Assembly: GCA_947502495.1 (NCBI GenBank)
Contig: CANNAC010000002.1
Location: forward strand, 558,001-622,000
Reading direction: 5' to 3'
DNA from: an uncultured Flavobacteriaceae bacterium
GTDB lineage: Bacteria; Bacteroidota; Bacteroidia; Flavobacteriales; Flavobacteriaceae
Length of the DNA stretch: 64,000 bases
Shown here: in pieces, positions 42,967 to 49,302 of the stretch
Layout: each line of letters starts with the position of its first letter
Numbering within the stretch: the first letter of the stretch is position 1
The notes under the pieces: generated by a model
What the model saw: only the letters and a program-made list of their open reading frames with translations
What the model was told of the DNA's origin: nothing
Database searches by the model: none
Made by a program: the position numbers and the translations under genes

Positions 42967-44172
42967 ATGCATTTCCCTTTATACATAGCGAAACGTTATT
43001 TGCATTCTAAAAGCAGTAACAATGCTATAAATTTTATTACCATAATTGCAGCTATCGGGATTGTTCTTGGTGCTGCCTCTTTATTTGTTGTACTATCTGG
43101 ATTTGCTGGTTTAAAAGACTTTACCTTACAATTTACGTCTATTGTAGATCCCGATTTAAAAGCCGAAACGGCAATAGGAAAATCTTTTTTTATTACGGAT
43201 GACGAATTAGAAAAACTAGATAATCTAGAAGATATCGTTTCGTATTCAAAAATAATTGAAGATCGTGTTTTTATTGCTTTTGATGAAAAAAACTATCCCA
43301 ATGCATATATAAAAGGAGTGGATGAAAATTACGAAAAAGTAAACATCATCGATTCTGTAATACCCTTAGGAAGCTGGCTTGCGCAAAACACCAATCAAAT
43401 AGTAGTTGGTTGGGGAATTTCTAGCAATCTCTCTTTTGGTGTTTTAGATTATGCCAAGCGCATCAGTTTGTATGTGATTAAACCTGGAAAAGGACAAATA
43501 ACTTCCGAAAAACAAATATACAACACCTTTCAAGCGGTAAACGTTGGTATTTTTGATATTAACGAAGAGCTAAACGACAAATACGTTTACGCGCCATTTG
43601 CCTTTGCTAAAGAACTTTTGGGTTATGAAAACAATCAGATTTCTGCGATAGAATTTAAACTACAAGAAGATTTCGACGAAGACCAAGTACGAGAAAACAT
43701 TCAAAATATATTAGGAAACAAAGTCGTATTAAAAAATAGAGCACAACTAAACGATGCACTATACAAAATGCTAAACACCGAATATCTAGCGGTATACCTC
43801 ATCTTTACACTCGTTTTAATCATTGCACTATTTAATGTTATTGGTTCCATTATCATGATGATTCTAGATAAAAAGAAAAACCTAAACACCTTATTTAATT
43901 TAGGAGCAACACAACAAGATATTCGTAAAATATTTTTTTATCAAGGCGTTTTAATGACGCTTTTAGGCGGTATTATTGGTTTGGTTATTGGTATCCTTCT
44001 TATTTTGTTACAACAAGCGTTTTCCTTTGTCATGATAACGCCATCACTACCTTATCCCGTTGCTTTAAAAGCCATAAACGTTGTTATCGTATTTTTAACT
44101 ATCACCATTTTGGGCGTATTAGCTTCTAAAATTGCAGCTACAAGAATTACTAAAAATTTAGTTTCTAATTAG
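42967..44172 (+). CDS. ABC transporter permease, LolC/LolE-like (FtsX/MacB_PCD)
   Basis: 401 aa. N-terminal MHFPLYIAKRYLHSKSSNNAINFITIIAAIGI is the LolC/E start; helix 1 (about 20-45), a periplasmic MacB-like core domain (45-260), then three helices (about 275-300, 315-345, 370-395). LolCE extracts lipoproteins from the inner membrane in gram-negative bacteria. Only a single permease and no LolD ATPase are here; flavobacteria commonly have it located separately. A hairpin terminator follows. Confidence 0.88.
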   Translation: MHFPLYIAKRYLHSKSSNNAINFITIIAAIGIVLGAASLFVVLSGFAGLKDFTLQFTSIVDPDLKAETAIGKSFFITDDELEKLDNLEDIVSYSKIIEDRVFIAFDEKNYPNAYIKGVDENYEKVNIIDSVIPLGSWLAQNTNQIVVGWGISSNLSFGVLDYAKRISLYVIKPGKGQITSEKQIYNTFQAVNVGIFDINEELNDKYVYAPFAFAKELLGYENNQISAIEFKLQEDFDEDQVRENIQNILGNKVVLKNRAQLNDALYKMLNTEYLAVYLIFTLVLIIALFNVIGSIIMMILDKKKNLNTLFNLGATQQDIRKIFFYQGVLMTLLGGIIGLVIGILLILLQQAFSFVMITPSLPYPVALKAINVVIVFLTITILGVLASKIAATRITKNLVSN

Positions 44173-46077: not shown

Positions 46078-46085
46078 TACCTTTG
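46078..46085 (+). promoter_or_regulatory. TAnnTTTG -7 box of the lipoprotein/Lgt-like/radical SAM cluster
   Basis: TACCTTTG ending 16 bases before the lipoprotein ATG at 46102. It supports that start over the longer frame from 46012. Confidence 0.6.
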
Positions 46086-46101: not shown

Positions 46102-46635
46102 ATGAAAAAGAACCTACTTTTACTTTTTGTCCCTGTTATACTCCTTTTAAATTGTAGTGCTATAGACGAATTAACCAAGTTCGATTTAGACTATCAAACA
46201 AGTTATTCTATTGCACCAAGCACTTTAATAAATACGCCTTTTGATATCCAAACGCCAGATATGACTACCGAGTCGGAGTCTACTTTTGAAAGCAATGATA
46301 CGCGTAAAGACTTAATTGAAAGCATTAAACTAAAAACGATTAAGCTTACTATTGACAATCCGCAAGATGGGAATTTCAACTTTTTAAAAGAAATTCATGT
46401 TTATATTAATGCAGAAGACCTTGAAGAAGTTGAAATTGCAAATGCATTTGATTTAGAAGACACAAACTCGAAGACCATTACCTTAGAGGTTACCGATCAA
46501 GAATTGAAAGAGTTTATTAAAAAAGATACTTTTAGTTTACGTGTTAAAACGGTTACAGACGAAACGATTAGCGAAACACACGATATAACCATTGACACTA
46601 AATTTAGAGTAGATGCTGAAATTTTAGGTGTATAA
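46102..46635 (+). CDS. hypothetical lipoprotein, first gene of the Lgt-like cluster
   Basis: 177 aa. Start at ATG 46102 chosen because of the -7 box and the signal peptide KKNLLLLFVPVILLLNCSA with lipobox Cys18. The mature part is acidic, beta-rich (LIESIKLKTIKLTIDNP, FNFLKEIHVYINAE) and ends VDAEILGV. No named family recognised, but similar proteins are frequent in flavobacteria. 23 bases separate its stop from the Lgt-like TTG start. If the cluster modifies a lipid or lipid anchor, this lipoprotein could be its substrate; that is inference. Confidence 0.82.
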   Translation: MKKNLLLLFVPVILLLNCSAIDELTKFDLDYQTSYSIAPSTLINTPFDIQTPDMTTESESTFESNDTRKDLIESIKLKTIKLTIDNPQDGNFNFLKEIHVYINAEDLEEVEIANAFDLEDTNSKTITLEVTDQELKEFIKKDTFSLRVKTVTDETISETHDITIDTKFRVDAEILGV

Positions 46636-46658
46636 TTTCCTTTATTTAATCTCATAAT

Positions 46659-47408
46659 TTGCAGATCCCTTTTGAACCCACTGTGTTTGGTTACCCTATA
46701 AATATTCATCTTGTTTTAGAATATTTAGCATTTTTTATTGCCTTTAGGTATTACGTTTTTTTAAGACGAAATAGTACCGATACGATTAACACCAACAACC
46801 GATTATCTATCATTCTTGGTGCCGCTCTTGGTGCTTTAATTGGTTCGCGATTGGTTGGTTTTTTAGAAAACCCTTTCATTGATTTTTCTCAGGAAAATAT
46901 TATTCAGGTATTAAACACCAAAACCATCATGGGAGGATTATTTGGTGGTTTACTAGGTGTAGAATTAGCGAAAAAAATTATTGGCGAAAAAACGTCTTCT
47001 GGTGATTTGTTCACGTTTCCTATACTTCTAGGTATTTTTATTGGTCGTGTTGGTTGCTTTTTTTCTGGTATTAACGAGTTTACTTACGGTAAAGAAACCA
47101 CTTCGTTTTTAGGTATGTATTTAGGTGATGGTATACTTCGTCATGCCACTTCCCTTTATGAATTGGTGTTTTTGGTTTTTCTATTCTTTCTATTAAAACA
47201 GATTAAAAACAAGGCCGTTTTAAAAAATGGCGAAGTCTTCAAGATTTTTATGCTAAGCTATTTCGGATTTCGGTTTTTTATCGAATTCTTAAAACCTAAT
47301 GTTTTTTATGTTTTTGGTTTCAGTAGCATTCAAATATTATGTGTAATTTGTTGGTTGTATTACAGCAAGTTTCTTACTAGTCTTATACTTAGTAAGAAAG
47401 CGCGTTAA
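46659..47408 (+). CDS. Lgt-like prolipoprotein diacylglyceryl transferase homologue, atypical active site
   Basis: 249 aa with about seven helices of the Lgt fold. Start TTG 46659 (stop in frame at 46647); GTG 46683 is the alternative. Conserved: IGSRLVGFLENP (54-73), TIMGGLFGGLLGVELA, GRVGCFFSG with Arg130 matching Lgt Arg143 region, and FRFFIEFLKP with Arg205. Missing: the HGG motif holding Lgt His103 (TIMGGL here) and the Asn of GRxGNF, replaced by Cys133. Such a change is shared, as I recall, with the GRIGC-type branch that is not the housekeeping Lgt. Its stop codon lies inside repeat copy C. The next gene is a Tes-like radical SAM enzyme. Confidence 0.8.
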   Translation: MQIPFEPTVFGYPINIHLVLEYLAFFIAFRYYVFLRRNSTDTINTNNRLSIILGAALGALIGSRLVGFLENPFIDFSQENIIQVLNTKTIMGGLFGGLLGVELAKKIIGEKTSSGDLFTFPILLGIFIGRVGCFFSGINEFTYGKETTSFLGMYLGDGILRHATSLYELVFLVFLFFLLKQIKNKAVLKNGEVFKIFMLSYFGFRFFIEFLKPNVFYVFGFSSIQILCVICWLYYSKFLTSLILSKKAR

Positions 47409-47504
47409 GGATTGTAGTGAAAATCCTTTTTGTGAGGCACGAGCAAAAAGATTGCAGCGTAAAGCCTGACCCTTTGCAGCTCTTTAGCGAAAAAGGGTAA
47501 CGCC
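47402..47504 (+). repeat. dispersed intergenic repeat, copy C
   Basis: 103 bp, begins GCGTTAAGGATTG (containing the TAA stop of the Lgt-like gene) and ends GCGAAAAAGGGTAACGCC. Shares AAAGCCTGACCCTTTGC with copy A but has a different middle (GAGGCACGAGCAAAAAGA). It forms most of the 119-base gap before the radical SAM gene and would be in its leader if co-transcribed. Confidence 0.7.
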
Positions 47505-47527
47505 CAAATGATAATAAAAACAAAGAA

Positions 47528-48922
47528 ATGCCAGTTAGAAAATATACCTATTACGATTTTACCTTAAGCTTATGTCCCGAGTGTTTAAAGCGTGTGGATG
47601 CAAAAATTGTGTTTGAAGACGGCAATGTTTATATGTTGAAACGTTGCAAAGAACATGGCAATTCTAAGGTGCTTATTGCAGACGATATTGCATATTACAA
47701 AAACATACGAAACTACAACAAGCCAAGCGAAACGCCGTATACGTTTAACACGAAAACCGATTATGGTTGCCCTTATGATTGTGGTTTGTGTCCAGACCAT
47801 GAGCAGCATAGTTGTTTGACGGTTGTAGAGGTTACCGATCGATGCAATTTAACCTGCCCAACTTGTTATGCGGGTTCGTCGCCAACCTATGGAAGACATC
47901 GTACGTTGGACGAAGTAAAAGCGATGTTAGATACCATTGTTAGAAATGAAAAGGAACCAGATGTGGTACAGATTTCGGGCGGAGAACCCACGATTCATCC
48001 GCAGTTTTGGGAAATTATGGACTATGCAAAATCGTTACCAATTCGGCATTTGATGTTGAATACCAATGGTATTAAAATTGCTAAAGATTTCGCTTTCGCG
48101 GAAAGGCTAAAAACCTACGCTCCAGATTTTGAGATTTATTTACAATTCGATTCGTTTGAAAATAGCGTGTTGCGAGAACTTCGTGGTGCAGATTTAAACG
48201 ATATTAGAAAACAAGCGATTGAAAACCTCAACAAATTAAATCTTTCTACCACCTTAGTGGTTACGCTTCAAAAAGGGTTGAATGATGGTGAAATTGGAAA
48301 AATTATAGAATATGCATTGAAGCAAAAATGTATTCGTGGCGTTACTTTACAACCGACACAGATTGCAGGAAGACTGGAAAATTTTAATCCGGAAACCGAT
48401 AGAATGACACTTACCGAAGTGCGTAGAAAAATAATGGAGCAAACGGATATTTTTAATCCGGATGATTTGCTTCCGGTGCCTTGTAATCCCGACGCTTTGG
48501 TTATGGGTTATGCGCTTAAACTAGGAGACGAAGTGTTTCCATTAACGCGTTATATTAACCCGAATGACTTACTAGACAATAGCAAAAACACTATTATTTA
48601 TGAGCAAGATTCGTTGCTTCAAGAAAAAATGATAGAATTATTCAGTACCGGGAATTCGGTGGAAGTTGCAGAAGAAAACCTAAAATCTATTATGTGTTGT
48701 TTGCCTAATATTGATGCACCAGATTTAGGATATGATAATTTGTTTCGGGTAATCATCATGCAGTTTATTGATGCGTATAACTTTGATGTTCGCGCCATTA
48801 AAAAATCTTGTGTGCATATTGTGGATAAGGATAATAAAATCATTCCGTTTGAAACGATGAATTTGTTTTATCGCGATGATAAAAAAGCGAGATTAGAGGA
48901 ATTAAGAAATGAAATGGTATGA
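47528..48922 (+). CDS. radical SAM protein of the tetraether-synthase-like (COG1964/Tes) group
   Basis: 464 aa. Three cysteine regions: an N-terminal CxxC...CxxH zinc-ribbon-like set (Cys16, Cys19, Cys40, His43); CPYDCGLCPDHEQHSC (Cys81, 85, 88, 96); the radical SAM CxxxCxxC at 106, 110, 113 in TDRCNLTCPTC. GGEPT (151-155) is the SAM loop. The C-terminus has CC (390-391) and KSCVHIVDKDNKIIPFETMN (Cys428, His430), matching the CxxH...DGxxxPFxxxN ending I know from archaeal Tes/MJ0619. Tes joins hydrocarbon tails of membrane lipids; bacterial relatives have been linked to membrane-spanning lipids. Product here is inference. It overlaps the next microprotein by one base. Confidence 0.85.
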   Translation: MPVRKYTYYDFTLSLCPECLKRVDAKIVFEDGNVYMLKRCKEHGNSKVLIADDIAYYKNIRNYNKPSETPYTFNTKTDYGCPYDCGLCPDHEQHSCLTVVEVTDRCNLTCPTCYAGSSPTYGRHRTLDEVKAMLDTIVRNEKEPDVVQISGGEPTIHPQFWEIMDYAKSLPIRHLMLNTNGIKIAKDFAFAERLKTYAPDFEIYLQFDSFENSVLRELRGADLNDIRKQAIENLNKLNLSTTLVVTLQKGLNDGEIGKIIEYALKQKCIRGVTLQPTQIAGRLENFNPETDRMTLTEVRRKIMEQTDIFNPDDLLPVPCNPDALVMGYALKLGDEVFPLTRYINPNDLLDNSKNTIIYEQDSLLQEKMIELFSTGNSVEVAEENLKSIMCCLPNIDAPDLGYDNLFRVIIMQFIDAYNFDVRAIKKSCVHIVDKDNKIIPFETMNLFYRDDKKARLEELRNEMV

Positions 48923-49092
48923 TGTGGTTCCTTCTTATTCTTGTTATGTTTATGCCTGCAGCGGTATTCGCTATTTATGGTAAAGAAGCCGAAAAAGGTA
49001 GTGAGAAACAAAAACAATACTATCAATTAGCCATGGTCTGTTTGGTGGCTAGTTTTGTTGTTTATGGTGTTGTTGTATTTACTAATTTATAA
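48922..49092 (+). CDS. 56-aa two-helix membrane microprotein
   Basis: ATG 48922 lies in the stop of the radical SAM gene (TGATG), 56 codons, stop 49090-49092. Two hydrophobic helices (about 2-20 and 37-54) flank a charged loop GKEAEKGSEKQKQ. No family recognised. Translational coupling to the radical SAM enzyme suggests it belongs to the same function, such as membrane docking. 3 bases before the next microprotein. Confidence 0.7.
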   Translation: MWFLLILVMFMPAAVFAIYGKEAEKGSEKQKQYYQLAMVCLVASFVVYGVVVFTNL

Positions 49093-49095
49093 AAG

Positions 49096-49302
49096 ATGAA
49101 GACATTATTACTTGAAGTAGGAAATTTAGACGGCTTGGTAATTATGCTTGTTGCCATTATGTTTGGTCCAGCAATTTTACTAACTATTATTGGAGCTGCC
49201 GTATTTAAAAAGAATAAAAAAGCAGCAAAAGTATTATTTATTCTTGCTACTGTTTATGTAATTATAAGCTTAGGTATTTGCGGAGCGCTTATGGCTAGTT
49301 AA
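49096..49302 (+). CDS. 68-aa two-helix membrane microprotein
   Basis: 68 aa, helices about 12-34 and 45-65, linked by the basic loop KKNKKAAK. Different sequence but same topology as its upstream neighbour. No family recognised. Last gene of the cluster; its last 33 bases overlap the 3' end of the convergent DUF4345 gene. Confidence 0.75.
   Translation: MKTLLLEVGNLDGLVIMLVAIMFGPAILLTIIGAAVFKKNKKAAKVLFILATVYVIISLGICGALMAS

Follow-up and report, generated by a model that had tools for sequence, protein, structure and literature searches.

A conserved gene module of Flavobacteriaceae joins a divergent Lgt-fold protein, a Tes/TrsS-related radical SAM protein, and a microprotein with a C-terminal cysteine

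The tetraether synthase Tes (GDGT-MAS; MJ0619, PDB entry 7tol) is a coupler of lipid tails whose structure has been solved with a bound phospholipid (PMC9433317; here and below, each source is cited for the passages drawn upon). Bacteria have a tail coupler in the membrane-spanning lipid synthase Mss, which its authors liken structurally to Tes (PMC13274423) and whose homologues were reported in 7 of 273 Bacteroidota metagenome-assembled genomes (MAGs) (PMC11868695). TrsS, a radical S-adenosylmethionine (SAM) (seleno)protein, is represented by the NCBIfam model NF045646. The Escherichia coli protein Lgt has been dissected by mutagenesis: the variants Y26A, H103A, R143A, N146A, G154A, and R239A are dead, and protein-substrate specificity depends on arm-2, H103, and the head domain (PMC13251419), while mutants at E151 and R246, R246K included, are inactive (PMC4728403). 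Finally, the DAG-RiPPs, which are diacylglyceryl-bearing ribosomally synthesized and posttranslationally modified peptides (RiPPs), illustrate how, in Bacteroidota, the same small peptide can be worked on by a cytosolic iron enzyme and receive an S-diacylglyceryl group (Chen 2025 preprint, PMC12636315). A gene module that recalls each of these systems in part lies in a 64,000-nucleotide stretch of DNA (the window) from an uncultured Flavobacteriaceae bacterium (GenBank assembly GCA_947502495.1, contig CANNAC010000002.1, positions 558,001 to 622,000 of the forward strand). It consists of a gene for a divergent Lgt-fold protein, here called lgtL, a gene for a Tes/TrsS-related radical SAM protein, and a gene for a 68-residue membrane microprotein that carries a cysteine near its C terminus.

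That these three genes make up the conserved unit is well supported. From 242 relatives found in a genome scan, the best 80 form the main locus set (best segments 89-99% alike; nearly all labeled as Flavobacteriaceae genera, three as Saprospiraceae). All 80 loci contain the three genes: lgtL precedes the radical SAM gene, both being on one strand, and a 68-residue microprotein homologue lies downstream of the latter, 5 kb away in one case (L072; L and G numbers denote loci and genomes). A sequence-only reading of the window had proposed a lipid-modification cluster of five plus-strand genes, namely a lipoprotein gene, the Lgt-like and radical SAM genes, and two microprotein genes. The five open reading frames (ORFs) are where it placed them, and rather than turning up apart in relatives, lgtL and the radical SAM gene proved to be a conserved, co-inherited pair. 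The lipoprotein has no claim to membership, with a homologue in only 6 of the 80 loci, and of the two microproteins only the 68-residue one belongs to the unit, the 57-residue one having homologues in 5.

How closely do the genes travel together? They occur together and, as a rule, are lost together. Among 395 sampled Bacteroidota genomes, the marker for the radical SAM gene (PF23545 at an E value of 0.001 or better) was found in 35, in 34 of them above the cut-off of that family; lgtL (E 1e-15 or better) was found in 32, and both in 31. Two genomes (G092 and G328) keep both genes, though on different contigs. The marker-only genomes are four: G124 and G358 have Tes-type proteins, G153 has a divergent radical SAM protein with a 26%-identical Lgt alongside, and G296 has a partial PF23545 match below the cut-off. 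Fisher's test on this co-occurrence gives 1.5e-40 when genomes are counted and 6.5e-18 when genera are (of 171 genera, 20 and 17 are positive, with 16 in common), in both cases with kinship ignored, and the pairwise distances of 27 pairs correlate (Spearman 0.90), as shared ancestry would likewise predict. In 30 chosen genomes, lgtL (E below 1e-40) is present in 12 of the 12 with the radical SAM gene, in none of 16 without it, and in neither of 2 with a Tes-type gene only; weaker matches (E 3e-9 or worse) in 8 of the 18 genomes lacking the module radical SAM gene are taken as other Lgt proteins.

The microprotein was followed in 349 Flavobacteriaceae genomes, where the radical SAM gene is present in 45, a microprotein match in 47, and both in 44. 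G531, which has the radical SAM gene and no microprotein match, was found on direct reading to encode a 72-residue microprotein ending GFSMCFGLLAGF. Three genomes with a microprotein match only are too few to carry much weight. G566 retains an intact microprotein beside short remnants of lgtL (23 residues) and of the radical SAM gene (26 residues); in G490, remnants of the radical SAM gene and of the microprotein remain, with no lgtL match; and G009 (80% complete) has an intact orphan microprotein whose C-terminal cysteine is gone (SSGFFYA). Plasmid regions of Nonomuraea and Persicobacter are unannotated; by ORF reading, that of Persicobacter carries lgtL (62%), the radical SAM gene (71%), and a cysteine-bearing microprotein.

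The conserved C-terminal cysteine of the microproteins is, in our view, the strongest clue to an acceptor. Microproteins were collected by a rule that ignores cysteines (ORFs of 45-140 residues with at least two hydrophobic stretches), walking from the radical SAM stop codon, or from lgtL if that gene lies downstream, or between the two. The rule returned 163 proteins, spread over 108 of the 115 loci covered (77 of the 80, and 31 of a further 35). The seven loci with no rule match are L051, L054, L077, L150 (G092), L154, where the contig ends, and two of Tes type, L151 and L157; L077 was missed although the homologue search finds a microprotein there. A cysteine lies within the last 25 residues of 157 of the 163 proteins, with at least one such protein in each of the 108 loci, and of 155 of the 161 distinct ones, followed by 1-16 residues. 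Around these 155 cysteines, glycine stands at position -2 in 140 and at +1 in 129, and isoleucine or valine stands at -1 in 116. Beyond the 80-locus set, where the small proteins differ widely, 27 of 38 still have glycine at -2; the cysteine contexts there include GYICGG, GLGACAV, GFATCAN, QGLCAL, GPGSCLL, NGMCNA, FGACMV, FGSCLS, and GGMCIF. Even unlike microproteins, then, end in a helix and then a cysteine, mostly as G-x-Cys. Pfam scans of six microproteins gave no match above cut-off. The sequence-only reading makes no mention of this cysteine.

On which side of the membrane does the cysteine lie? Lysine and arginine residues average 3.7 in the stretch from 36 to 18 residues before it and 0.08 after it, and because of this clustering before the cysteine and near absence after it, a periplasmic location is predicted. 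The idea that the microprotein is an ordinary lipobox lipoprotein was considered and rejected. Among 96 predicted lipoproteins encoded in these loci and in the window, position -1 is serine in 63, alanine in 13, and glycine in 6, and position +1 is lysine in 56; the microproteins mostly have isoleucine or valine rather than a small residue at -1, and their cysteine is C-terminal.

LgtL is an Lgt-fold protein, as the sequence-only reading had it. It scores 87 bits with the Pfam family LGT (PF01790, cut-off 24.9), and its AlphaFold2 model (predicted local distance difference test [pLDDT] 76) is matched by Foldseek to E. coli Lgt (5azb; E 1.5e-4, probability 1.00). It falls below the Lgt equivalog TIGR00544, however, with 47.1 bits versus a cut-off of 118.9, and of the genome's three Pfam LGT matches, at 196.4, 172.8, and 86.5 bits, it is the lowest. 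Fourteen LgtL proteins and the two other Lgt proteins of the genome were compared by E. coli Lgt numbering. All 14 LgtL proteins are like Lgt in keeping R143, R239, Y235, G104, and G154 and an acidic residue, E or D, at 243; R246 is lysine in 10, and a stretch of the periplasmic head domain is missing. From these residues we infer that LgtL may have retained lipid activation, with altered recognition of acceptor and head group. The first of the other Lgt proteins retains Y26, H103, N146, and E151. The second, a noncanonical Lgt outside the module (L002 1453-2253; G000:C1:411968-412675), bears the signature GCFAAGCCYG, and two similar small predicted lipoproteins (..LFNCDNDD..) are encoded near it.

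The radical SAM protein matches the zinc-ribbon/rubredoxin family PF23545 at its N terminus (71.6 bits; the sole match of the genome) and PF04055 (88.4 bits). Its best NCBIfam score is with TrsS (329.6 bits over residues 12-451 of 464, versus a cut-off of 490), followed by the Tes model NF045702 at 292.2 bits versus 450. It lies below both cut-offs, and its identification as a true Tes or TrsS was rejected. Among PDB entries, that of the tetraether synthase MJ0619 is nearest (7tol; E 6.7e-71), and the C terminus aligns to it as a further stretch. This likeness is one of sequence; the AlphaFold2 model, built from a shallow alignment, has a mean pLDDT of 47. The earlier assignment to the tetraether-synthase group is sound as regards the nearest structure, C terminus included, but the protein stays under the Tes cut-off and scores higher with TrsS.

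Metal ligands were compared in an alignment of 21 proteins, including that of the window and its Tes-type and plasmid relatives. As in Tes, the rubredoxin-like Cys3His site (CxxC..CxxH) and the CxxxCxxC motif are present (C16, C19, C40, H43, C106, C110, and C113), and the ligands of the N-terminal [4Fe-4S]N cluster of Tes (C73/C77/C80 plus a histidine) are matched by C81, C85, C88, and H91/H94. Met439 of Tes corresponds to M411 in the 7tol profile alignment, and its equivalent is kept in the core clade; 12 of the 21 proteins have it, with L152, L158, L160, L159, and the two Tes-type proteins not among them. Unlike in Tes, Tyr459 is replaced by Ile431, one cysteine of the C-terminal CC pair is a serine, Cys319, Cys390, and Cys391 are extra in the core clade, and LgtL and a microprotein are encoded alongside. 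Since the MJ0619 variants Y459F and Y459L are active (PMC9433317), the loss of the tyrosine does not exclude tail chemistry. In a FastTree phylogeny of 21 proteins, those of the core module form one clade (support 1.000), which joins three proteins from loci with an ICMT-family gene, apart from the Tes-type and plasmid relatives (0.975); the placement of G153 is weak (0.615).

Those three deep-branching loci (L152, L158, and L160) share the gene order radical SAM, ICMT-family methyltransferase, DUF4395-like, lgtL, and cysteine-bearing microprotein. The ICMT-family Pfam match is found in all three (49.9, 49.0, and 59.2 bits, respectively; cut-off 24), and DUF4395 is matched by Pfam in L158 only and recognized by likeness in L152 and L160. 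In eukaryotes, the ICMT family acts on S-lipidated cysteine. The Tes-type proteins are encoded at L151 8864-10321 (493.8 bits) and L157 7107-8582 (441.9 bits; Tes cut-off 450) in genomes G124 and G358, and neither lgtL nor a microprotein was found at these two loci. On plasmids of Mycolicibacterium vanbaalenii and two haloarchaea (L191, L192, and L194), an annotated methyltransferase gene directly follows the radical SAM gene, with no annotated Lgt nearby.

What might the three proteins do together? Our best guess is a role in a membrane lipid or a lipid anchor; the substrates, the order of steps, and the product are what we infer from the parts. The reading favored here, tentative and more likely wrong than right, is that LgtL lipidates the microprotein cysteine and that the radical SAM enzyme alters the chains of that lipid. 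LgtL, at the periplasmic face as Lgt is, would activate a glycerophospholipid by means of its retained arginine pair, and a diacylglyceryl or related group would pass to the Cys62 thiol, where the last helix of the microprotein ends on the periplasmic side. For want of a lipobox at this site, the microprotein would be anchored there but left uncut. The cytosolic radical SAM enzyme, like Tes, would abstract hydrogen from saturated, often iso-branched, lipid chains, and formation of a C-C or C-S bond would yield a microprotein carrying or organizing a modified lipid. A stricter version is a dedicated C-terminal lipidation, in which LgtL S-diacylglycerylates the non-lipobox cysteine and either the attached or the donor lipid receives C-C or C-S bonds from the radical SAM enzyme. 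It is unlikely, and if true, it would give a radical-modified lipo-microprotein with no counterpart among the known lipoproteins, CaaX products, and membrane-spanning lipids.

A number of observations weigh against the favored reading. LgtL would work outside and the radical SAM protein inside, on opposite sides of the membrane. LgtL is unlike Lgt in having lost H103, N146 (to cysteine), and E151, all essential in E. coli Lgt and changed in 14 of 14 LgtL proteins; Y26, also essential there, is histidine in 11 of the 14 and tyrosine in L152, L158, and L160. Because such residues are gone, LgtL might transfer nothing, and of the proposed union of an acyl-transfer fold with a radical enzyme, it is the conserved pairing that holds up. 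The second Lgt outside the module shares the H103, N146, and E151 changes and the short head, and the Lgt proteins of several other bacteria are also small-headed (PMC13251419), so these losses by themselves do not point to a special acceptor; the favored reading is graded slightly lower on account of the second Lgt. The cysteine counts need care too. In the control set of membrane ORFs from the same loci, which may include spurious frames, 89 of 205 have a cysteine in the last 25 residues, most of the microproteins belong to a single homologous family, and some genomes are represented by more than one locus (L078 and L185 have the same microprotein), so the counts are not independent. The 57-residue microprotein lacks such a cysteine. 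G092, with both enzymes, has no microprotein that could be found beside either gene. G075, rated 100% complete, has lgtL alone (L201 3653-4498), with no radical SAM relative found. Of the three microprotein-only genomes, G009 lost the cysteine, but G566 and the G490 remnant kept it.

Other readings divide the work differently. Along the lines of the sequence-only proposal, it is possible, if doubtful, that the radical SAM protein joins iso-branched phospholipid tails into iso-diabolic-type membrane-spanning lipids, with LgtL shifting glycerolipid between head groups and the microproteins recruiting the soluble enzyme. Tes is, after all, the nearest solved structure, iso-branched bacterial tails end like isoprenoid tails, and bacterial Tes homologues have been named as candidates (Zeng 2022, PMC8941075). 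Yet the score is far under the Tes cut-off, the Tes-type loci of two sampled genomes do without lgtL and microprotein, and the conserved cysteine is left unexplained. This genome lacks a match to PF09989, which we take to represent ether formation of the PlsA/Ger type, and one would therefore expect ester forms. For Flavobacterium johnsoniae, which may or may not carry the module, the passages cited list ornithine, lysine, and glycine lipids plus phosphatidylethanolamine and name no membrane-spanning lipid (PMC4484230). Alternatively, the microprotein could be the peptide substrate of the radical SAM enzyme and be lipidated by LgtL, making the module a radical SAM counterpart of the DAG-RiPPs. 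The microproteins are small, the cysteine-bearing one comes in two or three tandem copies at 39 of the 80 loci and starts at or before the radical SAM stop codon at 41 of 77, and the C-terminal motif is conserved; moreover, a cytosolic iron enzyme together with the lipoprotein pathway is reported to make RiPP-lipoprotein hybrids in Bacteroidota (PMC12636315, preprint). The DAG-RiPPs share with the module a small peptide, a cytosolic iron enzyme, and Bacteroidota hosts, along with S-diacylglyceryl transfer if LgtL acts as proposed, but their enzyme is an MNIO, their lipobox is N-terminal, and they use the general lipoprotein pathway (same preprint), where the module combines a radical SAM protein with a C-terminal G-x-Cys and its own Lgt paralogue; no MNIO family is among the Pfam and NCBIfam matches shown for the five window proteins. 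The RiPP-maturase models among the 25 best of 58 NCBIfam matches all score far below cut-off, the microproteins are integral to the membrane with the cysteine predicted on the side away from the enzyme, and two neighbors, a gene for peptidase M28 downstream (29 of 80 loci) and one for an FtsX-type permease upstream (63 of 80), look like general synteny. We hold this peptide reading to be distinctly unlikely.

Could the chemistry be that of TrsS instead? Here the radical SAM protein would be a TrsS branch engaged in sulfur or small-molecule chemistry, and LgtL merely a membrane-fold partner. The higher TrsS score speaks for this, as does Cys319, which is common to the three plasmid relatives and absent from the two Tes-type proteins, and as do the annotated methyltransferase genes that adjoin those plasmid relatives (one Mycolicibacterium, two haloarchaeal) and, from another family, the ICMT genes of the three deep module loci. 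On the other side, the protein is below the TrsS cut-off, LgtL retains the lipid-activating residues, and no Lgt is annotated near the plasmid relatives; such a role, too, seems distinctly unlikely. The window's gene also differs from that of TrsS in having no in-frame UGA, and its partners are not the methyltransferase seen beside the plasmid relatives. That the genes are chance neighbors without joint function is practically negligible. Joint function is itself predicted from sequence, and G075 has lgtL alone, but the co-occurrence data stand against chance, particularly the two genomes that keep the genes on different contigs and the joint loss in G566.

The arrangement within the window, collected in Table 1, differs somewhat from that in relatives. 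The genes lgtL and radical SAM overlap by 8-20 nucleotides in 50 of the 80 loci, are separated by 51-200 in 18, by 201-400 in 6, and by more than 400 in 6, five of these last with 1.3-5.5 kb between the genes. Because overlap is so common, the gap of 119 nucleotides in the window looks like a derived state. It is filled by a repeat with 13 matches in its own genome, itself included, at 74-100% identity. The repeat noted earlier as a possible sign of two transcripts is thus real as a dispersed element, in a gap that looks derived. A -7 box at position 46078 had been placed at the head of all five genes, but TAnnTTTGC boxes number 23 in the window versus 23.9 expected from shuffles, so the box alone proves nothing, and it was rejected as proof of a single transcript. 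Sigma-70 matches (14 versus 14.4 in shuffles) and terminator matches (1 versus 2.3) are likewise at chance. The layout behind the proposed translational coupling stands: the radical SAM gene overlaps the 57-residue ORF at an ATGA, and the 68-residue ORF starts 3 bases after the latter.

Table 1. Features of the module and its immediate surroundings in the window
Feature	Position	Strand	Description
lgtL	46659..47408	+	249 residues, TTG start; divergent Lgt-fold integral membrane protein
Tes/TrsS-related radical SAM gene	47528..48922	+	464 residues; N-terminal rubredoxin-like domain (PF23545)
Core microprotein	49096..49302	+	68 residues, two transmembrane helices with a lysine-rich loop between; end ..SLGICGALMAS
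Cys62 codon of the 68-residue core microprotein	49279-49281	+	
Accessory microprotein	48919..49092	+	57 residues, two transmembrane helices; overlaps the radical SAM stop codon; without C-terminal G-x-Cys
Dispersed repeat	47409..47527	no strand	119 nucleotides; occupies the space from lgtL to the radical SAM gene
Predicted lipoprotein (..LLLNC..)	46102..46635	+	local neighbor outside the conserved unit

The five plus-strand ORFs are flanked by a dus gene and a DUF4345 gene. The predicted lipoprotein gave no Pfam or NCBIfam family above cut-off, and the radical SAM gene has a 99% identical counterpart in an Oceanihabitans MAG, as found in the genome scan for relatives, in keeping with Flavobacteriaceae DNA. 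A gene for an FtsX-type permease with a MacB-like domain lies upstream of the module (42967-44172); "LolE-like" is a label only. A dus homologue is near the module in 68 of the 80 loci, and several Flavobacterium loci that retain the module have neither dus nor the permease gene; the permease and peptidase M28 neighbors, both absent from several Flavobacterium loci, look like general synteny of these genera. A role in defense was considered and rejected: the sole PADLOC matches are to viperin models, score 45-46 bits, and cover the generic radical SAM core.

Is such a combination new? A search of open PMC papers, a scope outside which most subscription papers lie, found no description of an lgtL-like gene beside a Tes-like gene in titles, abstract openings, or passages, and PMC8939145, as far as cited here, concerns graspetide clusters and not such a pair. 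The parts are rated as new variants of known families, and the combination may deserve more if its chemistry is confirmed. Both enzyme genes are present in about 8% of the sampled Bacteroidota genomes (31 of 395), and the module is an object on which the roles of bacterial Tes-like proteins and of divergent Bacteroidota Lgt paralogues can be tested. If the guess about the acceptor is true, S-diacylglyceryl transfer would extend beyond N-terminal lipoboxes.

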